A DNA stretch of 64,000 nt, taken from contig JAIXWG010000039.1 in assembly GCA_027482245.1 (NCBI GenBank), positions 124,001 through 188,000 on the forward strand, given 5' to 3'. The DNA is from Acetobacteraceae bacterium (GTDB lineage Bacteria; Pseudomonadota; Alphaproteobacteria; Acetobacterales; Acetobacteraceae). The position numbers were made by a program, and so were the translations under genes. A model generated the notes under the pieces. That model had not been told where the DNA came from, did no database searches, and saw only the letters and a program-made list of their open reading frames with translations. This document shows, piece after piece, positions 8,593-60,200 of the stretch (within the stretch, counting starts at the first letter, position 1; each line of letters opens with the position of its first letter).

Positions 8593-8618
8593 CCCTCCCC
8601 CGCGCTTGCGGGGGAGGG
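8593..8618. terminator. Palindromic terminator-like hairpin between hyuB and hyuA
   Basis: CCCTCCCCCGC (8593-8603) and GCGGGGGAGGG (8608-8618) form a perfect 11-bp stem with a 4-base loop (GCTT). It sits in the 48-base gap between the convergent hyuB and hyuA 3' ends and could end transcripts from both sides, though no T-run follows. The same palindrome occurs twice more, inside dnaE2 (48115-48140 and 48161-48182), and as a variant at 46185-46210. Confidence 0.65.
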
Positions 8619-45710: not shown

Positions 45711-46133
45711 TCACGGGGCGGCGAGCAGAGCGAGGGTCTGGGGGTCCGGCTGGCCGGCGCAATGCAGCGCCAGGGCCTCGGCGAAGATGGCCTCGCCCGG
45801 ATCGGCGGCGGCGAAGAGGGTCATGCAGGATCGGAATTTCAGCGCGTCGATGTCGCCCAGGATGTCGTGCAGGGGCTTCGGTGCGGCGGCGTTGACGAGG
45901 GCGGTGCAGTCCCGCAGCCGGGGGCCGAGCACGGGATGGGCGAGCCAGTCCCGCGCATCCTGCAGCGAATGCAGCGCGTAGAAGCGCGCCGTCTCGCTGC
46001 GGGCCAGGCCATCCAACTGGGGGAAGACGAACCACATCCAGTGCGTGCGCTTGCGCCCGGCGGTGAGTTCGGAGCGCACCTGGAAGAAGACCGGGTCCTG
46101 CGCGGCGAGGAAGCGGGTGGGATCGAGGGGCAT
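45711..46133 (-). CDS. DUF1810 family protein
   Basis: A 140-residue protein of the DUF1810 family: FLAAQDPVFFQVRSELTAGR, the highly conserved THWMWFVFPQLDGLARSETA, and VLGPRLRDCTALV followed by LKFRSCMTLF. The family is widespread, cytosolic and related by context to macro/ADP-ribose proteins; no activity is firmly established. Stand-alone gene here, with a Fur-like box beyond its stop that belongs to the next gene. Confidence 0.88.
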   Translation of the reverse strand: MPLDPTRFLAAQDPVFFQVRSELTAGRKRTHWMWFVFPQLDGLARSETARFYALHSLQDARDWLAHPVLGPRLRDCTALVNAAAPKPLHDILGDIDALKFRSCMTLFAAADPGEAIFAEALALHCAGQPDPQTLALLAAP

Positions 46134-46169
46134 GCGTCCAGCCTATCGCGTCTCCGGCGCTTCGCGCGC

Positions 46170-46210
46170 CCCCCCTCACCCCGACCCTCTCCCCCCGTCG
46201 GGGGAGAGGG
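46170..46210 (-). terminator. Palindromic terminator-like repeat after manganese catalase
   Basis: CCCTCTCCCCC (46185-46195) and GGGGGAGAGGG (46200-46210) form a perfect 11-bp stem with loop CGTC, preceded by CACCCCGA. It lies just past the manganese catalase stop on the minus strand. It belongs to the same palindrome family as 8593-8618 and the copies in dnaE2 (shared CCCCGACCCTC start). Confidence 0.6.
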
Positions 46211-46230
46211 AGACGTGGGGCAAGGGCTTG

Positions 46231-47136
46231 TTACGAAGACTTCCAGAGCTTCTGGGCGATCTCGAAGATTTCCTCCGGCGCGTAGTCCGGCGTGAAGGCG
46301 GAGGAGGCGCCGGCGAGGTCGGGGATCTTGCCGGATTCCGGCGGGCCGTTCATCACGACCAGCGGGCCGGTGCCGTCATAGGTGGTCTCGTCCTCCGACC
46401 AGATGCCGGCGATCGCCTTGTAGTCCTCCGGGCTGTTCGTATAGAGGCGCCGGTGGATGCCCTCCGCCTCGTACTTTGCGGATTCCTTGATGTTGGCGAG
46501 CGGGATGTTGGGCACGGGCAGCATCTTCTCGATCGACACGCCGGTGATCTTCTTCAGCGCCAGCGCATAGGCCTGGGCATGCACGCTGCCGCGCACCAGC
46601 AGGTAGCCGCAGACCTCCCGCGCCGTCTCGTCCGACACGCTCTCATAGACCCGCAGCTTGTGCATGCGCGCGCCGCATTCGAGGAAGAAGTTGTGCAGCA
46701 GGTCCAGCACCAGATTGCCGGTGTGGAAGACGAAGGTGCCGTTCCAGGGGCGGCCGCTGCTGTCGAAGGGCAGGCCCGCGCCGCCGCCGGTGAAGAAGCC
46801 GCCGGGGTCGCGCACATCCTTCATCATGCCGAAGGGCGTATCGCCAGGCTCGCCCTTGGGCGCGTCGCCGGGCGGGCCATTGGCGAGCAGCGCGCAGCCA
46901 TTGGTCACGAGTTCCACATGGCCGAGTTCCTCCGCGGTGATGGAGGCGACGAGGTCGTAGAAGGGCCGCAGCTTCGACTTCGAGCGGAAGTTGAAGGACT
47001 GGAACATGTAGTTGTTGAGGGTCGACATCTCCCCAAACTTGCCGCCGAGCAGTTCCTGGAGGGCGGAGGCGGCATTGGGGTCGGCGCGCTTCGGCTCCGG
47101 CAGGTCGATCAGCAGCTTGTCCATGCGCATGAACAT
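46231..47136 (-). CDS. Manganese catalase
   Basis: A 301-residue non-haem (dimanganese) catalase. The four-helix core carries the ligands in LLGGKFGEMSTLNNYMFQ, ASITAEELGHVELVTNGC and LECGARMHKLRVYE / LLVRGSVHAQAYALAL. It dismutates hydrogen peroxide in the cytosol. The start MFMRMDKLL at 47136 with GGAGACG upstream fits the family; the open frame continues 20 codons further without homology. Stand-alone, downstream of the imuB-dnaE2 operon in the same direction, 117 bases after dnaE2. Confidence 0.93.
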   Translation of the reverse strand: MFMRMDKLLIDLPEPKRADPNAASALQELLGGKFGEMSTLNNYMFQSFNFRSKSKLRPFYDLVASITAEELGHVELVTNGCALLANGPPGDAPKGEPGDTPFGMMKDVRDPGGFFTGGGAGLPFDSSGRPWNGTFVFHTGNLVLDLLHNFFLECGARMHKLRVYESVSDETAREVCGYLLVRGSVHAQAYALALKKITGVSIEKMLPVPNIPLANIKESAKYEAEGIHRRLYTNSPEDYKAIAGIWSEDETTYDGTGPLVVMNGPPESGKIPDLAGASSAFTPDYAPEEIFEIAQKLWKSS

Positions 47137-47253
47137 CGGGGACGTCTCCGTTGTGGTCTTCGGAGGCGTCAACGCGGCGTTGCCGCAACGGCCCATGGAT
47201 GTTCCGCGTGGCAGGTGCAGATGGCAGTCCGCGATGGGGGAGTGCTTGTTGCG

Positions 47254-50200
47254 CTATCGGAAATCGCGCGATGGCGGCATGGCGCTGGCGTTCCGTTTCG
47301 CGTCGCGGATGGCGGGGTCGCGCGGGTCGTGCAGGTTCGGGCGCTCCACCTCATCGGCGCGGGCCAGGGTTCGCTTCCAGCTGGGGTCGTCATCCTCCAG
47401 CCGATGCAGCCCGTCCAGCATCGCCGACCAGTCATGCAGCCGCTTCACCAGCAAATGGATGATGGGCACGGCGGATTGCTCATGCCGCTCCACGCGGCCT
47501 TCCGCCATGACCAGGCGCGCGCCGACGACCGCGGCGCGGTCGCGCGTGACGACATCGGGGTAGAGGACGAGGTTCGCGGTGCCGAACTCATCCTCCACCG
47601 TGAAGAACACCACGCCCTTGGCGCTGCCGGGGCGCTGCCGCACCAGCACCAGGCCGGCGAGCTTCAGCCAGCGTGATTGCCGCGCGGCGGTGAGGGCGCG
47701 CGTATCGACGGCGCCACGGTCCCGGATGGCGGCGCGCAGCAGCGCCATGGGATGGCGGCGGAGCGAGAGGCCCGTCGCGGCGTAGTCCAGCACGGTTTCC
47801 TCACCCGCCGTCTCCGGCGGCAGCAGCGGCAGTTGTGCGTCGCGGGCGTGGGAGAGGGGGAGGGGCGCCTCGATCCCCGCCGCTTCCCACAGCGCGCCGC
47901 GGCGGCCCTGCGACAGCGGCCCGAAGGCATCGGCGCGGGCGAGGGCCTGCATGGCGCCACGATCGAGCCGCGCGCGGCGGGCAAGGTCGGGGATGTCGGC
48001 GAAGGGGGCTTCCTTTCGCGCAGCCATGAGCGAGTCCGCGTGATGCTGGTGCAGGCCGGCGATGAGGCGGAGGCCGAGGCGGAGGCGGGTGTGTGGCGCC
48101 GACCCCCACCCCGACCCTCCCCCGCAAGCGCGGGGGAGGGGGCAGAGGCGCTCCCGGACTCCCTCCCCCGCGCTTGCGGGGGGTTGCGGCATTGCCGCGA
48201 CGCCAAGGGCTGGTTGGGGTGGGGGTATCTCCAGCGTGCAGTCCCAATCCGACCGCGTCACATCCGCGGGCAGCACCTCGACATGGTGCTCCCGCGCATC
48301 CCGCACGATCTGCGCCGGCGCGTAGAAGCCCATGGGCTGGCTGTTCAGCAGGGCGGCGGCGAAGGCGGCGGGGTGGTGGCGCTTGATCCAGGCGGAGATG
48401 TAGACGAGCTGCGCGAAGCTGGCCGCGTGGCTTTCGGGAAAGCCATAGGTGCCGAAGCCCTCGATCTGCTTGAAGCAGCGCTCGGCGAATTCCTCCGCAT
48501 AGCCGCGCGCGACCATGCCCCCGATGAAATCCTGGCGGAATTTCCAGATCTCGCCGGTGTTGCGGAAGGTCGCCATGGCGCGGCGCAGCTGGTCGGCGCG
48601 GGAGGGGGAGAAGCCCGCGCCGACGATCGCGATCTGCATCGCCTGTTCCTGGAACAGCGGCACGCCGAGCGTCTTCTCCAGCACGCCGCGCAGCTCCTCC
48701 GACGGGTAGGTCGCCTTCTCCTCGTTGTTCCGGCGGCGGAGATAGGGATGCACCATGTCGCCCTGGATCGGCCCCGGCCGCACGATCGCGACCTGCACGA
48801 CCAGGTCGTAGAATTTCGCGGGGCGCAGCCGCGGCAGCATGTTCATCTGTGCGCGGCTTTCCACCTGGAAGACGCCGACGGAATCCGCGCGCTGCAGCAT
48901 GCGGTAGGTCTCGCGGTCATCCTGCGGGACGGAGGCCAGCGTCCACTTCCTGCCGGTGGCGCCCTCGATCAGGTCGAAGGCGCGGCGGATGCAGGTGAGC
49001 ATGCCGAGGCCGAGCACATCGACCTTCAGGATGCGCAGCGCCTCGATGTCGTCCTTGTCCCATTCGATGGTGGTGCGGCCTTCCATCGCGGCCTTCACGA
49101 CGACGGTGTGTTCGATCAGCGGACCCTTGGTGATGACGAAGCCGCCGACATGGGTCGCGAGGTGGCGGGGGAAGTCCTGCACCTCCTCCGCGATCTCCAT
49201 CGCCAGGCGCAGCTTCGGATCGCCTTCGGGCGCATAGCCATTGTCCTCCGCCAACTCGTTCAGCGACTTGTCGCCGGACCCCCAGACGGATTTCGCGAGG
49301 CGCGCGGTCACGTCCTCCGTCAGTCCCATCGCCTTGCCCACTTCGCGGATCGCGCTGCGCTCGCGGTAGCGGATCAGCGTCGCGGTCAGCGCGGCACGAT
49401 CGCGGCCGTATCGGGCGAAGATGTGCTGGATGACCTCCTCGCGCCGCTCATGCTCGAAATCGACGTCGATGTCGGGCGGCTCGTCGCGGGCAGCGCTGAT
49501 GAAGCGCTCGAACAGCATGTCGTGCTTGTCGGGCGGCACGGCGGTGATGCCGAGGACGTAGCAGATGGCGGAATTGGCGGCCGATCCGCGCCCCTGGCAG
49601 AGGATCTCCTTCGATCGCGCGAAGCGCACGATCTCATGCACCGTCAGGAAATAGGCGGCGTAGTCGAGCTGCGCGATCAGCGCGAGTTCATGCGCGATCT
49701 GGCGCGCCACCTTGGGCGGCGTGCCGAGGGGGTAGTGTTCCAGGCAGGCGGCCTCCACGCGCTGCGCCAGCGTCTGCTGCGCGGTCAGGCCGGGGTCCAG
49801 GATCTCCTCCGGGTATTCGTAGGAGAGGTCGCGGAGCGAGAAGCGGCAGGCGCGGATGACGCGGAGCGTCGCCTCCAGCGCCTCCGGATGCCGGGGCAGG
49901 CGGCGGGCGACTTCCGTGGGCGCCAGCAGCTGCGCTTCCGCGTTGGCCTCGGCGGCGAAGCCCAGCTGCTCCACCGTGACGCCGAGGCGGATGGCGGTCA
50001 GCACATCCGCCACGCGCCGCCGCTCCGCCGCGTGGTAGCGCACGCCGCCGGCCGCGATCAGGCCGAGCCCCGCGCTGCCCGCGGCTTCCGCCAGGCGATC
50101 GAGCCGCGCCTGGTCGTCGCCGCGGCAGCGATGATCGACGGCCAGCATGAGGGGCAGCGCCAGGCGTTTCCCGAAGGCGTTGGCATCGGCGCGGAGGCGG

Positions 50201-50586
50201 GCCCCGAGGCCGGGGTCGGCGTTCTTCGGGATGCGGGCCAGGACCTGGCCCTCCGCCGCCGCGGCCAGGGCGTCCCGCGTCAGCCGCGTCTCGCCCTCCA
50301 TGCGCGCTTCGGAGAGCAGGCGGCAGAGGCGGCCCCAGGCGGGGCGGTCGGATGGCCAGGCCAGGTATTCGGCGCCGTCATCGAGGCATAGCCGGATGCC
50401 CGGGACGTAGCGGATGCCGACCTGCTCCGCCGCCACCATGCCACGCACCAGCCCGGCGACCGAGTTGCGGTCCGCGATGCCGATGGCGGGCATGCCGAGC
50501 ACCTTGGCGGCGGCGACGAGTTCGCGGGGGTGGGAGGCGCCCTCGAGGAAGGTGAAGTTCGAGAGGGCGGCGAGCTCGGCGAACAT
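47254..50586 (-). CDS. dnaE2: Error-prone DNA polymerase DnaE2 with an in-frame repeat insertion
   Basis: A 1110-residue DnaE2. PHP-type N-terminus (FAELAALSNFTFLEGASHP), palm motifs EILCQGRGSAANSAICYVLG and DEPPDIDVDFEHERREEV with catalytic aspartates, the SVGVFQVESRAQM segment, DLVVQVAIVRPGPIQGDMVHP, then the FGTYGFPESHAASFAQLVYI region and a C-terminal OB-fold. It does SOS translesion synthesis with ImuB. Between SDWDCTLE and LRLGLR, residues about 787-833 are foreign: Pro/Gly/Arg-rich sequence encoded by two copies of an intergenic palindrome (48100-48225). Without it the length (about 1065) is normal. Follows imuB by nine bases. Confidence 0.95.
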   Translation of the reverse strand: MFAELAALSNFTFLEGASHPRELVAAAKVLGMPAIGIADRNSVAGLVRGMVAAEQVGIRYVPGIRLCLDDGAEYLAWPSDRPAWGRLCRLLSEARMEGETRLTRDALAAAAEGQVLARIPKNADPGLGARLRADANAFGKRLALPLMLAVDHRCRGDDQARLDRLAEAAGSAGLGLIAAGGVRYHAAERRRVADVLTAIRLGVTVEQLGFAAEANAEAQLLAPTEVARRLPRHPEALEATLRVIRACRFSLRDLSYEYPEEILDPGLTAQQTLAQRVEAACLEHYPLGTPPKVARQIAHELALIAQLDYAAYFLTVHEIVRFARSKEILCQGRGSAANSAICYVLGITAVPPDKHDMLFERFISAARDEPPDIDVDFEHERREEVIQHIFARYGRDRAALTATLIRYRERSAIREVGKAMGLTEDVTARLAKSVWGSGDKSLNELAEDNGYAPEGDPKLRLAMEIAEEVQDFPRHLATHVGGFVITKGPLIEHTVVVKAAMEGRTTIEWDKDDIEALRILKVDVLGLGMLTCIRRAFDLIEGATGRKWTLASVPQDDRETYRMLQRADSVGVFQVESRAQMNMLPRLRPAKFYDLVVQVAIVRPGPIQGDMVHPYLRRRNNEEKATYPSEELRGVLEKTLGVPLFQEQAMQIAIVGAGFSPSRADQLRRAMATFRNTGEIWKFRQDFIGGMVARGYAEEFAERCFKQIEGFGTYGFPESHAASFAQLVYISAWIKRHHPAAFAAALLNSQPMGFYAPAQIVRDAREHHVEVLPADVTRSDWDCTLEIPPPQPALGVAAMPQPPASAGEGVRERLCPLPRACGGGSGWGSAPHTRLRLGLRLIAGLHQHHADSLMAARKEAPFADIPDLARRARLDRGAMQALARADAFGPLSQGRRGALWEAAGIEAPLPLSHARDAQLPLLPPETAGEETVLDYAATGLSLRRHPMALLRAAIRDRGAVDTRALTAARQSRWLKLAGLVLVRQRPGSAKGVVFFTVEDEFGTANLVLYPDVVTRDRAAVVGARLVMAEGRVERHEQSAVPIIHLLVKRLHDWSAMLDGLHRLEDDDPSWKRTLARADEVERPNLHDPRDPAIRDAKRNASAMPPSRDFR
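48100..48227. repeat. Palindromic intergenic-type repeat inserted in dnaE2
   Basis: Two copies of the CCCTCCCCCGC/GCGGGGGAGGG palindrome lie inside the dnaE2 frame: 48115-48140 is complete (loop AAGC), 48161-48182 has a 7-bp stem with a damaged outer arm. Flanks CCCCCACCCCGACC (48103-48116) and GGTTGGGGTGGGGG (48212-48225) are themselves nearly inverted to each other. The same palindrome lies between hyuB and hyuA, which shows it is a mobile or dispersed intergenic element rather than dnaE2 sequence. Confidence 0.75.
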
Positions 50587-50595
50587 CGGGCGCCG

Positions 50596-52122
50596 TCACA
50601 GATGCCCATGGATGAACCACCGCGCTTCCGCCCCGAAGCCGATGCGGCAGACCCAGAGGCGCGCGCCGGTGACCAGTTCCAGCCGATAGTAGTCCCGCGG
50701 CTGGCGGTCGGGCGGGTCGCGCCACCATTCCGGCTCCAGCCGTTCCGGCCCCTCCGCCGCCACGACGCGCAGCGCCTGGTTGCCGATGCGGAGCAGGGAG
50801 GGCGGCGCATCCGGCAGCAGGGCCATGGCGGTGATTTCCCGCGGCCGGCGCAGCAGGCGGACGGGGCGCAGCGCGAGCGGCCAGTCCTCCGGCACCTCCA
50901 CGACAGTGGTGGGCGGGACGCGCATCACCTCCCGCTCCGGCCAGTGGGAGGGCTGGGGGGCGAGGCGCCAGACCTGGGCGCGGCCGGACAGGCGGTCGAA
51001 GAGGCGGCCCATCTCCTCCTCCCGCGCCGCGTCGCCGGCGCCGGCGAAGCCGGATTGCAGGCCGATGAGGGGCTCCGTCTCCGTCGCCGCCAGGGCCATG
51101 CGTTCGAAGCCGTGGCCGGGTTCCAGCGCATCCAGCCGGTCGCGGAACAGGCGGGCGAAGTGGCCGGCGTCCCGGCTGGGCAGGCTGGTGCCGATGGCGA
51201 TCTCCTGCACCCCGCCATCGACGCGATGGGCCCGCAGCACCAGGCGGCGCGCGCCCTGGGACTGCATGGTCAGGTGGGCGCAGAGCGAGTCCAGCAGTAG
51301 CGGCATCACCGCATCGATGCCGGTGCGCGTCGCGACGGGTTCCAGGAACTCGCGCGACACCTCGAAGACCGGGGGCGGGCGGAGCGGCGTGATGGGAGTG
51401 GCGAGCAGGCCGGAGGCCTCGTCCAGCGCGCGCAGCAGCGCCCCCCCGAAGCGGCGGGAGAGCGGGCCGCGGGGCTGGCGGTGCAAGTCCGCGACCCGCC
51501 GCAGGCCGAGGCGGGAGAGGGTGGCGACGACATCGGGATCGATCGGCAGGGCGGAGAGGGGCAGGGCCGCCACCGCGTCCCGGTCGCCCCCCGGCGGCAC
51601 CACCAGCCCGCCGCGGCCGCCCCGCGCCAGGGCCAGCGCCGCCGCGGCATGGTCCGCGATCACGCCGGTGGCGCGCAGGCCGAGGCGGGCGAGGCCGCCG
51701 ACGGCGCGGTCCAGCAGCGCGGCCTCTCCCCCCACCAGATGGGCGGCGCCGGCGATGTCGAGCAGCAGCGCATCCGCGCCCCTGGTCGCCACCAGCGGCG
51801 TGAAGCGCAGGCACCACAGGCCGAGGTCGCGCAGGAACAGCGCATCGGCGGCGGGATCGGCTTCCAGCGCCTGGGCTTCGGGCGCCACGGCGCGGGCATC
51901 GCCCAGCGCCTGGCCGGGGCGGATGCCGGCCACGCCGTCGCAGGCCACCACCGCGCGGCGGGGCCCGATGCCCTGCCAGAGCAGCACGGGGCCCTCCAGC
52001 CCCAGGCGACGCAGCCGGTCCACCGGCAGGTGGGGCAGCAGCAGCGCCAGGTGGCGGCGTGCGATGCCAGGGGAGGGTTCGAGGGACGAGTCGGGCGCCG
52101 CGGTGCTGCTTCCGGCGTTCAT
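50596..52122 (-). CDS. imuB: ImuB, catalytically inactive Y-family polymerase-like protein
   Basis: A 508-residue DNA polymerase Y-family-like protein. LALLLPHLPVDRLRRLGLEG replaces the catalytic palm start (the usual DxDaFfa acidic motif is absent), followed by GIRPGQALGDARAVAPEAQ, a helix-hairpin-helix part LSALPIDPDVVATLSRLGLR, and the ImuB C-terminal segments GPERLEPEWWRDPPDRQPRD and YYRLELVTGARLWVCRIG. ImuB links the sliding clamp, DnaE2 and ImuA. Here dnaE2 follows but no imuA precedes. A LexA-like site lies 43-57 bases upstream of the ATG. Confidence 0.92.
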   Translation of the reverse strand: MNAGSSTAAPDSSLEPSPGIARRHLALLLPHLPVDRLRRLGLEGPVLLWQGIGPRRAVVACDGVAGIRPGQALGDARAVAPEAQALEADPAADALFLRDLGLWCLRFTPLVATRGADALLLDIAGAAHLVGGEAALLDRAVGGLARLGLRATGVIADHAAAALALARGGRGGLVVPPGGDRDAVAALPLSALPIDPDVVATLSRLGLRRVADLHRQPRGPLSRRFGGALLRALDEASGLLATPITPLRPPPVFEVSREFLEPVATRTGIDAVMPLLLDSLCAHLTMQSQGARRLVLRAHRVDGGVQEIAIGTSLPSRDAGHFARLFRDRLDALEPGHGFERMALAATETEPLIGLQSGFAGAGDAAREEEMGRLFDRLSGRAQVWRLAPQPSHWPEREVMRVPPTTVVEVPEDWPLALRPVRLLRRPREITAMALLPDAPPSLLRIGNQALRVVAAEGPERLEPEWWRDPPDRQPRDYYRLELVTGARLWVCRIGFGAEARWFIHGHL

Positions 52123-52164
52123 GGCGCTGTCATTCTCGGCTGCCGCGATGGTCGATGGGTATCA

Positions 52165-52179
52165 GTTCATGTTTTGTAC
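52165..52179 (-). promoter_or_regulatory. LexA-like SOS box of imuB-dnaE2
   Basis: GTTC-ATGTTTT-GTAC matches the alphaproteobacterial LexA consensus GTTC-N7-GTTC at seven of eight positions, with the T-rich spacer often seen in such sites. It is in a locally AT-rich patch 43 bases upstream of the imuB start. Known imuB/dnaE2 operons are under LexA, so the site is credible; the divergent polysaccharide gene starts 160 bases away. Confidence 0.6.
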
Positions 52180-52338
52180 TCATCAAGGCGGTGCCGATCA
52201 AGCACAAACGCCTCCCCTTGAAGGAGGAAAGAAGAGGGGATAATCACCCCAGGGTTGCATATTCCTGCCGGCCTCCTTCATCATCACGGATGCGTGATGT
52301 GACCGGGCGGCCACCGGGCCCGGCGAAGACGAGGCAGG

Positions 52339-57221: not shown

Positions 57222-60200
57222 CTATTGCCACACCACGCCGAGGGTGTGCACCAGGACGCCGAGCTTGCGTTCGTCGCTGCCCTCCCCGGCCTCGGCCGGG
57301 GAGACGGCGCCGGCGCGGCGCAGGCTGACCGGGACCTCCGTGCCGCCGCGGCTGAGGCGGGCGCAGTCGATCTCGATCTTCTGGTGGGCGAAGTCGTCAT
57401 TCTCGAACCGCAGGCTGGTGGCCAGCACGCCATCGACGCGGACCTCCACCATCGCCGGGCCGCTGACCTGCGTGCCGAAGACGCGGCCGAACAGCTCCAT
57501 GCTGAGCGTCTGGCCGGCTTCCGGCGGCCGGGGCAGCCGGATTTCCGCGGATTCGGCGTGGGACCAGCGGCCATCGGGCTCCGCGTCGAACCAGCCGCTG
57601 AGGGTCACGCCCTCCATCTGCCCGTCGACCGAGAAGTCCAGCATGCTGCTGAGCTTCGGCACCACCGGCGGGGGCGCGGTCTCCCCGGCTTCCGCGGCCG
57701 CCTGCTCGGCGACGGAGGGCGTGGCCTCCGGCACCGGTTCCGGCGCGGGTTCGGGTGCCGGGGGCGGCGGGGGCGGCGGCGGCGGGGGCTCGGGCTCCGG
57801 CGGACGCTCCACTTCCTGCAGCAGCCGGTGGCGGCCGAGGCCCGCGGAGGCCAGGCGGTCGCGCACCTTGCGTTCATTGGTGCCCGGGCCGACCAGCAGC
57901 GCCGCGGTCAGCTGCATGCCGAGCAGGCGGCCGTCGCTGTTGATGCCGGCATCCTTGGGCGAGACGGCGCCGAGGCGGCGGAAGTACAGGGTGGCGACCG
58001 GGGTGTCGCCCAGCCGTTCCGCCAGGCCACGGACCTCCGCCAGCACGGTGCGGTCGCCGGTGAATTCCCAGCGGTCCAGCAGCGTGCCGTTCAGCTCCAC
58101 CTCCACCACCGCCGGGGCGGCGGGGCTGCCGGCGATGGTGCGGCACAGCACGAACAGGCGCCAGTTCTGGTCATCCCCCACCACCGGGGCGATCGCCAGG
58201 CCGCCGCCATCGCCGCGGCTCCAGCAGCCCGATCCCTCGGCCGGGTACCAGTTGCCGCGCAGGGTGATCGCGGCTTCCTCCTCCTGCGCCTTGGTGGCGG
58301 GGTCGGCGCCGAACTTCAGGATGCGGTTGCTGCGCAGGATGGGCAGCGCGCGGCGGCTGATGCGGGCCAGCCGGATGCCGAGCGGGCGTTCATCGGTGGA
58401 ACCCTTGGCGACGAAGGGCGACAGCGCGGCATCGACCGCCAGCACCAGGTCCACCGTGCCATCCGCTTCGAGCGCGTGCGGCGGCAGCGGCACGTCGATG
58501 GCGCCCATCCGCCCGGCTTCCACGGCGTAGCGGCCCAGGACGCGGCCCCCGGCGGAGGCCACGACATTCACCGCCTCCGCCCCCGGGGCGGGCAGGAAGC
58601 CCTCGACATCCAGAGTCAGCAGGGCGCCGTCGCGGGCCGCTTCCTCCCCCAGCATCAGGGGCAGGGTGGCGGTGGGGCCGAAGCTCCAGGTCGCGGCGCG
58701 TTCCGGCGCGTGCCAGTCAAGGCCGAGCGCGGCGCGCAGCGTTGCCATTTCCGTCGCCTGCTGGCTGGAGGCGATGGTGAGCGTGCCGCCGGTGGCCAGC
58801 GCCAGGCGGCCGCGGCGCGGCGCGGTGCCGGCCAGACGGGCCTCGAAGCCGATCAGGCCGAAGCCATAGGCTTCCTCCGCCGCGCCGAGTTCCAGCGCCT
58901 TGGGCGCACGGGCATCCGCCGCGACCAGGTCGATGGTCATGGGCTCCGACCGCGCGCGCAGCGCGGCGGGCAGACGCAGCGTGACGGTGGTGGGGACGTC
59001 GCTGGTGAAGGTCCAGGCGCCGACCTCCTCCCCATTCGCGAGCGCCAGCACCAGCAGCGGCGCCGCCGCCGTCGCCACCGGGCGGAGCCGGAGGTCGATG
59101 TCGAGGTCGCGGCCCGGCATCTCGGTGATCGACAGCTCGAGCCGCGGGCGGAGGTCGGTGCTGACCATGCCCCAGCCCGACCGCGTGCCCCAGGCGCCGG
59201 CCAGGAAGGGCTGCACCGGGGTCTCGCCGCCGATGCCATAGACCTGGCCCAGGCTGGCGCGGTGCGGCACGCGGGGGGTGGTGCCGAAATAGAGGCTGGC
59301 ATCCTTCACGCCCGACAGCTGCGCGAGCGCGACCTTGGCGATGCCGAGGCCGACCAGGCGCGCGTCGTCGGATTTGCTGACCTGGCGCACCGGCGTCAGG
59401 CTGCCGCTCTCGAACTCGATCCGCACCAGCTTGCCGCGCGCCGCGAGTGCGGCGGGGATCACGGCGTGCAGGACCTGCAGGTCGCCGCCGCGCAGCTTCC
59501 AGCGCGCCACCGGCGTGCCATTGGCCAGGACCCGGACCTCGAACGGCGTGTTCGGGAAGGACAGGGCCCGTGCCTCGGCGATCAGCACCAGCGGTTCGGC
59601 GGGGGGCACGCCGGGTTCGAAGAGGAGTTCGCTCCGCACGTGGTTGGCCCAGCAGCCCCAGCGTTCCAGCGGGTGCCAGCCGCCGCCGCGGATGCGCGAT
59701 GCCGCGACGCGGTCGGCGAAGTTGACGATGGCGCCGAGCGTGTAGGGCCGCGGCGGGCGGCTGCGGTCCTGGCTGTCCGCCAGCAGGTCCAGCAGGTGCT
59801 CGGCCGATTCGTTCCAGCCGAAGGGCCGGTAGCCGTCGCGGATCTTCGCCTCCGCCGCCGCGCGGGCGGTGCGGCTGCCGGCGTAGAACTGCAGCTTGGT
59901 CGCCCAGGCCGCGACATCCAGCGGGTCCAGCAGCTCCACCAGCCCCGGCGCGATCTCGGGCACCGAGGAGGTGTCGGCGGCGATGCAAAGCTTGCCGTGG
60001 CGCAGGCTCTCCCCCACCGGCAGGCCCCAGCCCTCGTACAGCGAGGGATAGACCGTCATCAGGCAGTTCTCGTAGAGCCAGTCCAGCACCAGGTCATCGA
60101 CGCCGTCGAGGATGGTGACATGGTCGCGCAGCCGCGCGTCGCCGCGCAGCGCGCGGGCCACGTCATGGCCGTTCCAGGCGACGCCGCCCACGATGACGAG

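Follow-up and report, generated by a model that had tools for sequence, protein, structure and literature searches.

An in-frame palindromic repeat in the dnaE2 gene of a Falsiroseomonas genome, and palindromic inserts in the same loop of DnaE2 across Alphaproteobacteria

How does a palindromic repeat of the kind usually found between genes come to lie inside the coding sequence of a conserved DNA polymerase, and has this happened once or repeatedly? This question is raised by the dnaE2 gene found in the window, i.e. the whole analysed stretch of 64,000 nucleotides (contig JAIXWG010000039.1 of assembly GCA_027482245.1, positions 124,001 to 188,000). The first-pass annotation had described a foreign stretch of about 47 residues in the encoded protein, and such a stretch is indeed present, with a length of 48 residues and containing a 125-nt repeat element (Table 1).

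Table 1 Palindromic repeats, the dnaE2 gene and the parts of its insert in the window.
Feature	Position	Strand	Remarks
Single repeat unit with identical palindrome arms, between convergent genes	8593..8618	.	
Related palindrome, TCTCCCC variant (CCCTCTCCCCCCGTCGGGGGAGAGGG), just beyond the end of the Mn-catalase gene	46185..46210	.	
dnaE2 (imuC), error-prone DNA polymerase, 1110 aa	47254..50586	-	ORF unbroken through the insert; NCBIfam NF004225; Pfam DNA_pol3_alpha, finger, HHH_6
Expanded loop, residues 787-834 (48 residues, 144 nt), flanked by SDWDCTLE / LRLGLR	48085..48228	-	Empty (5 residues) in F. stagni/G013 and G007
Dimeric palindromic element, 125 nt	48102..48226	-	Ends agree to within 1-2 nt with those of four almost complete relatives at other genomic places
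Unit 1, outer C-rich tag ACCCCCACCCCGA	48102..48114	.	Conserved as an edge of the 46-unit consensus
Unit 1, hairpin CCCTCCCCCGC-AAGC-GCGGGGGAGGG	48115..48140	.	Perfect; 11-bp arms, 4-nt loop
Unit 2, hairpin, inverted copy with incomplete outer arm	48161..48182	.	22/22 nt complementary to 48119-48140
Unit 2, variant arm with small inner palindrome	48183..48211	.	Similar variant in copies L161, L162 and L163
Unit 2, outer tag	48212..48226	.	Largely complementary to the unit 1 tag

The host gene gave a score of 1299.8 bits against the NCBIfam model of the error-prone polymerase family (NF004225, cut-off 939). The insert splits the HHH_6 domain (residues 769-896, Pfam), and in an alignment with E. 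coli Pol III alpha, whose end was read by eye, the loop corresponds to the residues NDDGE (about 826-830), ahead of GIGAIKGVGEG. This position suggests a flexible hairpin turn, and the insertion site would be the turn just ahead of the first helix-hairpin-helix (HhH) of HHH_6. Compared with the empty loop of the related genome G007, the window gene is longer here by a net 129 nt (43 codons), and the reading frame has been kept, as had been stated previously. In comparisons with G001, G007 and G013, dN/dS amounted to 0.12-0.13 upstream and 0.07-0.08 downstream of the insert, values that draw largely on divergence older than the insertion and that, at the level of sequence comparison, indicate purifying selection on both flanks.

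The two hairpins of the element are inverted relative to each other and complementary over 22 of 22 nt, and the whole is therefore a dimer, built from a repeat unit of approximately 41 nt and bordered by terminal inverted repeats (48102-48121 versus 48207-48226, 85% complementary). Two copies of one palindrome had been reported within the insert; the first is perfect, whereas the second turned out to be a mirror copy with a partial outer arm, directly adjoined by a variant arm. The predicted fold of the element has an energy of -103.9 kcal/mol (z -6.8), and none of 200 shuffled sequences was equally stable. All six reading frames are free of stop codons, compared with 5.0 in shuffled sequences. 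Across ten dimers of the family, the mean was 5.4 open frames of six against 5.0 in shuffles, a difference so small that base composition accounts for the open frames, and stop avoidance as an adaptation to coding was rejected. A known structured RNA was also rejected: a search of region 46100-48300 against Rfam gave nine matches, all under the gathering score, and those located on the element were mostly to microRNA-precursor models.

The element is a member of a family dispersed throughout the genome. Its palindrome pattern was matched 82 times in the 6.39 Mb, versus no match for the reversed control pattern. Sequences matching nearly the full length of the insert occur at four other places of the same genome (83-84% identity) and at another four in G001 (83-86%). 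An alignment of 46 units revealed sharp edges, with ACCCCCACCCC[G/A]A followed by the hairpin and then by AG. Both the identical palindrome and the variant that the first-pass annotation had placed elsewhere in the window were recovered (Table 1). Among the matches listed, 44 distinct sites (comprising about 53 of the 82 palindromes) were assigned by the codon usage of their flanks, using a rough, home-made classifier, as lying between convergent (25) or unidirectional (18) genes, between divergent genes (none) or inside a gene (one, dnaE2). Inverted pairs of exact palindromes occur at nine of these 44 sites, and pairs with a degenerate partner are present in addition to that count. Seven further sites lacking an exact palindrome were convergent (five), unidirectional (one) and divergent (one), with none in a gene. 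Combined, the 50 sites outside dnaE2 include 30 convergent, 19 unidirectional and a single divergent one, and in only one of the 51 classified sites, namely dnaE2, does a coding frame pass through the element. The repeat is thus abundant outside genes, and its concentration at gene 3' ends agrees with the earlier description as 'terminator-type' and fits some 3' role; the element itself, however, was absent from the list of stem-loops with a T run obtained in a terminator scan of region 46000-52300. The RAYT profile PF01797 gave no hit in any of the 15 genomes of the genus (the repeat's own included), with 5 of 14 control genomes positive, and a RAYT was consequently rejected as the mobiliser.

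Filled and empty loops are found side by side within Falsiroseomonas. The genus sample comprised 15 genomes (the window genome included), in which 14 loops were measured; the loop of G003 was left out because the gene is frameshifted there. Loops of 40 or more residues (range 46-76) are present in 7 of the 14 measured DnaE2 proteins. The closest insert-free relatives, i.e. F. stagni with G013 (at a tree distance of 0, with the same DnaE2) as well as G007, possess a loop of 5 residues and nothing of comparable length, and because of these empty sites a recent insertion, which had been one of the suggestions made from the window alone, is supported. G001, equally close to the window gene, carries a different insert. 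The empty loops are too divergent from the filled one to be compared for a target-site duplication. In G003 (locus L105, G003:C27), the frameshift falls exactly at the loop, which is 29 nt long, and a natural break, the leftover of a lost element and an assembly error would look alike.

The inserts of G000 and G002 belong to the same subtype (84% identity over 132 nt) and are read in different frames, and the close pairs G000/G001 and G002/G009 bear different elements. With the same subtype in different frames and different elements in so close a pair as G000/G001, at least some of the insertions look independent. A single ancestral insertion in the genus, later recombined with other copies of the repeat and lost from some species, would accommodate the subtype common to G000 and G002, but it would not predict the change of frame between them, the empty loops of G007 and G013/F. 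stagni nest among the carriers (in a tree in which one key node has a support of only 0.53), and the inserts in further alphaproteobacterial lineages would be left without explanation. We therefore regard such a history as unlikely.

The recurrence of inserts beyond the genus had no part in the first-pass annotation and came to light in the follow-up. The class Alphaproteobacteria was searched using only the 63 residues ahead of the loop as the query, which gave matches in 145 of 289 genomes; all 150 matches listed were taken and 145 loops were measured. Five loops with a weak right flank (L259, L261, L272, L328 and L336) were dropped, and all of these except L261, which reaches a contig end, look no longer than 30 residues. 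The median length was 9 residues; 139 loops had at most 32 residues, none had 33-47, and six, including that of the window, had 48-95. Among named loci (79 measured of 80, the best 80 of 594), five have loops of 40 or more residues, with the insert of L017 being that of G006. In other members of the family, none of the 28 measured loops reaches 40 residues (30 loci listed of 149 matching genomes, with the window genome and G003 excluded).

Every loop of at least 40 residues in these sets (17 loops with 16 distinct inserts, one of them, L036, from a genome labelled only Proteobacteria) is palindromic at the DNA level, with z-values of -2.7 to -11.5 relative to shuffled sequences. The 22 loops of 22-32 residues gave z-values of -2.8 to +1.9, and the three below -2 (L229, L247 and L271) may hold small palindromes; control stretches of the same genes, available for all but L257 and L263, ranged from -3.3 to +2.5. 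Eighteen inserts (the 16, together with L247 and L070) fell into eight sequence groups at a blastn E-value of 1e-4, with L029 and L247 linked only via a host tail and the C-rich group linked loosely. Insert peptide types such as VIPRLDRGIQ are ones that we take to be familiar. In eight hosts (G265, G227, G325, G336, G447, G449, G450 and the window genome), the insert belongs to a multicopy family of the host's own. Five groups are multicopy at home in this sense: (i) the C-rich group (window genome, G265, G325 and G447), (ii) L257 in G227, (iii) L296 in G336, (iv) L036 in G449 and (v) L054 in G450. Among the matches listed, the inserts of G411, G182, G448 and G451 were not seen in multiple copies at home; that of G411 (L298) has many copies in G336, a genome of the same family. 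Since the window loop contains one palindromic repeat and the same loop of other alphaproteobacteria contains others, this loop seems to be a place where non-coding DNA has landed time and again and turned into protein.

The loop also stands out from the rest of the gene. A count of perfect hairpins in 116 DnaE2 genes gave, for arms of at least 12 nt, 12 (in 9 genes) within 4,851 nt of loop sequence versus 9 in the remaining 372,990 nt; for arms of at least 11 nt, it gave 13 and 35. Other inserts of at least 12 residues were located, in an alignment of 40 rows, at residues 56, 125, 906, 915 and 1093. The only one at these five positions that looks repeat-like is a second insert, rich in Gly and Glu, that follows window residue 915 in L029, a Rhizobium-labelled MAG. 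Other genes are seldom affected: of the 92 sites examined in three genomes besides dnaE2, a single one was found inside a gene (0 of 50 in the window genome, 1 of 21 in G450 and 0 of 21 in G325), these genomes having been picked for their hit dnaE2, which was not the case for the class sample. That sole site (L399:1027-2379) is in an Erythrobacter genome, where a gene for an HI0933-like flavoprotein holds an in-frame copy of the repeat present in the DnaE2 of the same genome. Ten other frames spanning an element, a set that excludes three on the opposite strand, were compared with Pfam; eight had no match, and in two the sole match was to a domain lying beyond the element. By a rough estimate, hits on the dnaE2 loop would exceed those on an average gene by one to two orders of magnitude.

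Outside Alphaproteobacteria, 40 loops were obtained from 44 listed matches in 'same phylum' genomes; in three of them (L350, L378 and L382) the left edge was set a few residues too early. Long loops that are not palindromic occur here, i.e. L356 (66 aa, z +0.3), L383 (63 aa, z -0.6) and L349 (37 aa, z -0.5), and the proposition that long DnaE2 loops are without exception palindromic repeats therefore fails outside the class. A small hairpin is visible in L346 (22 aa), with a z-value of only -1.0. The palindrome-free long loops imply that the position is generally permissive, and tolerance is thus favoured over a special attraction for repeats.

Taking these data together, we think it probable that mobile repeats are tolerated in a permissive loop of DnaE2. 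A REP-like, C/G-rich dimer, dispersed mainly outside genes of the Falsiroseomonas genome, would have been copied into dnaE2 at the turn just before the first HhH of HHH_6. With six frames stop-free by composition and a net gain that keeps the frame, the polymerase gene would then encode a Pro/Gly/Arg-rich loop. This loop would tolerate the element, so that the insertion would persist as nearly neutral, and the same loop has repeatedly taken up whichever palindromic repeat family its host carries. The element, its family in the genome, the empty sites, the kept frame and the recurrence are observed; we infer the translation of the loop, its near-neutrality and the copying mechanism, for which no RAYT was found. 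Permissiveness alone does not explain the excess at this loop, because only 1 of the 92 sites outside dnaE2 lies in a gene.

One way to account for that excess is selection for a long flexible loop by the HhH motif that lowers or tunes the activity of DnaE2, and thus SOS mutagenesis, with palindromes serving as the handiest source of loops. The hits on one loop in several lineages, above the in-gene rate elsewhere, and the different elements in the two close pairs named above are in line with it, as is the speculation, in the accessible part of PMC3733652, that repair genes carrying REPs are changed in function. Still, 139 of the 145 class loops remain at 32 residues or fewer, and the length, the sequence and, between G000 and G002, even the frame of the same element vary, which makes a selected loop improbable. 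We are similarly doubtful of the bolder idea of a conserved evolutionary docking site, the turn before the HhH, at which selfish palindromic repeats settle throughout Alphaproteobacteria and are retained since long loops retune the SOS mutasome. Even less credible is the loop DNA as a preferred target of the copying machinery (through a sequence or ssDNA preference), with frequent and mostly neutral hits: the strong excess at one site and the similar flanking DNA of many members (CTGGAG ... CTCCGCCTCGGCC) would suit it, yet eight insert sequence groups share the site, the insertion points vary by several to about 20 nt, and no mobilising enzyme is known, PF01797 having been found in none of the genus genomes. 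That the insert turned dnaE2 into a pseudogene is very unlikely, since the window gene has an open frame, a family score over the cut-off and low dN/dS on both sides, the frameshift of G003 at the same loop being the one observation in its favour.

Comparable in-frame repeats are on record. Rickettsia palindromic elements (RPEs), as described in the available text of PMC2229807, are palindromic repeats of 105-146 nt that lie between genes and also in frame in conserved protein genes, where they form a new segment; according to this review, a gmk gene that carries an RPE is translated into an active product whose affinity for the substrate is changed. The likeness to RPEs drawn in the first-pass annotation is supported for the mode of action, as the window repeat is multicopy, palindromic and mainly intergenic (82 palindromes, 50 of 51 sites non-coding), with a copy in a conserved gene that keeps the frame and has homologues without the insert. 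In contrast to RPEs, judged by their description, the window element is C/G-rich and of a make-up that is unrelated as far as seen, lies in a gene at only 1 of 51 sites, and involves one gene loop hit again in many lineages.

REPs and BIMEs (GTAG and CGTC superfamilies) are, in the sections of PMC3733652 at hand, short stem-loops often arranged as head-to-head dimers at gene 3' ends. The same sections report REPs inside genes, many of them for DNA repair and DnaE2 among them, with a speculation on mutators, and state that Acetobacteraceae lack CGTC repeats and that, except for recB, REPs found within one category of genes occupy different sites. The window element resembles these, as far as that account goes, in being part of a family of short stem-loops at gene 3' ends, with one copy, itself a dimer, in a DnaE2 gene. 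It differs in its family edges (ACCCCCACCCC[G/A]A and AG in the 46-unit consensus, with no GTAG or CGTC tag), in its stem of 11 bp and in the lack of a RAYT in 15 genomes. A CGTC stretch was seen by eye at a hairpin edge of the L257 insert, one of those in the census. MITEs with coding potential (ERIC, Correia) are described in the available part of PMC2229807 as non-autonomous repeats whose open frames are fused into genes. The window element likewise is non-autonomous, has its open frame fused into a gene and ends in terminal inverted repeats; unlike MITEs, it is without a demonstrable target-site duplication or transposase.

With in-frame RPEs and REPs in DnaE2 genes already on record in these partly accessible sources, the kind of phenomenon is known. 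What seems new, within the searchable literature, is that the inserts converge on one loop and that the family has neither a GTAG/CGTC tag nor a RAYT; no mention of a single shared DnaE2 loop was seen in the literature searched or in the accessible text of PMC3733652. At a single spot of one enzyme, and in several lineages, different non-coding repeats have convergently given rise to protein sequence; this is a natural replicated experiment on repeats becoming protein, in which the published speculation on repair-gene repeats and mutability becomes testable. If the docking-site idea were true, selfish DNA would adjust the mutation rate of its host.

Two further hairpins were noted in the window. 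A perfect 11-bp hairpin at 48592-48624, within the coding sequence of dnaE2, is shared with F. stagni (L016) and is probably a coding coincidence. The short hairpin CTCCCCGGCCTCGGCCGGGGAG at 57282-57303 may be another degenerate copy of the repeat.
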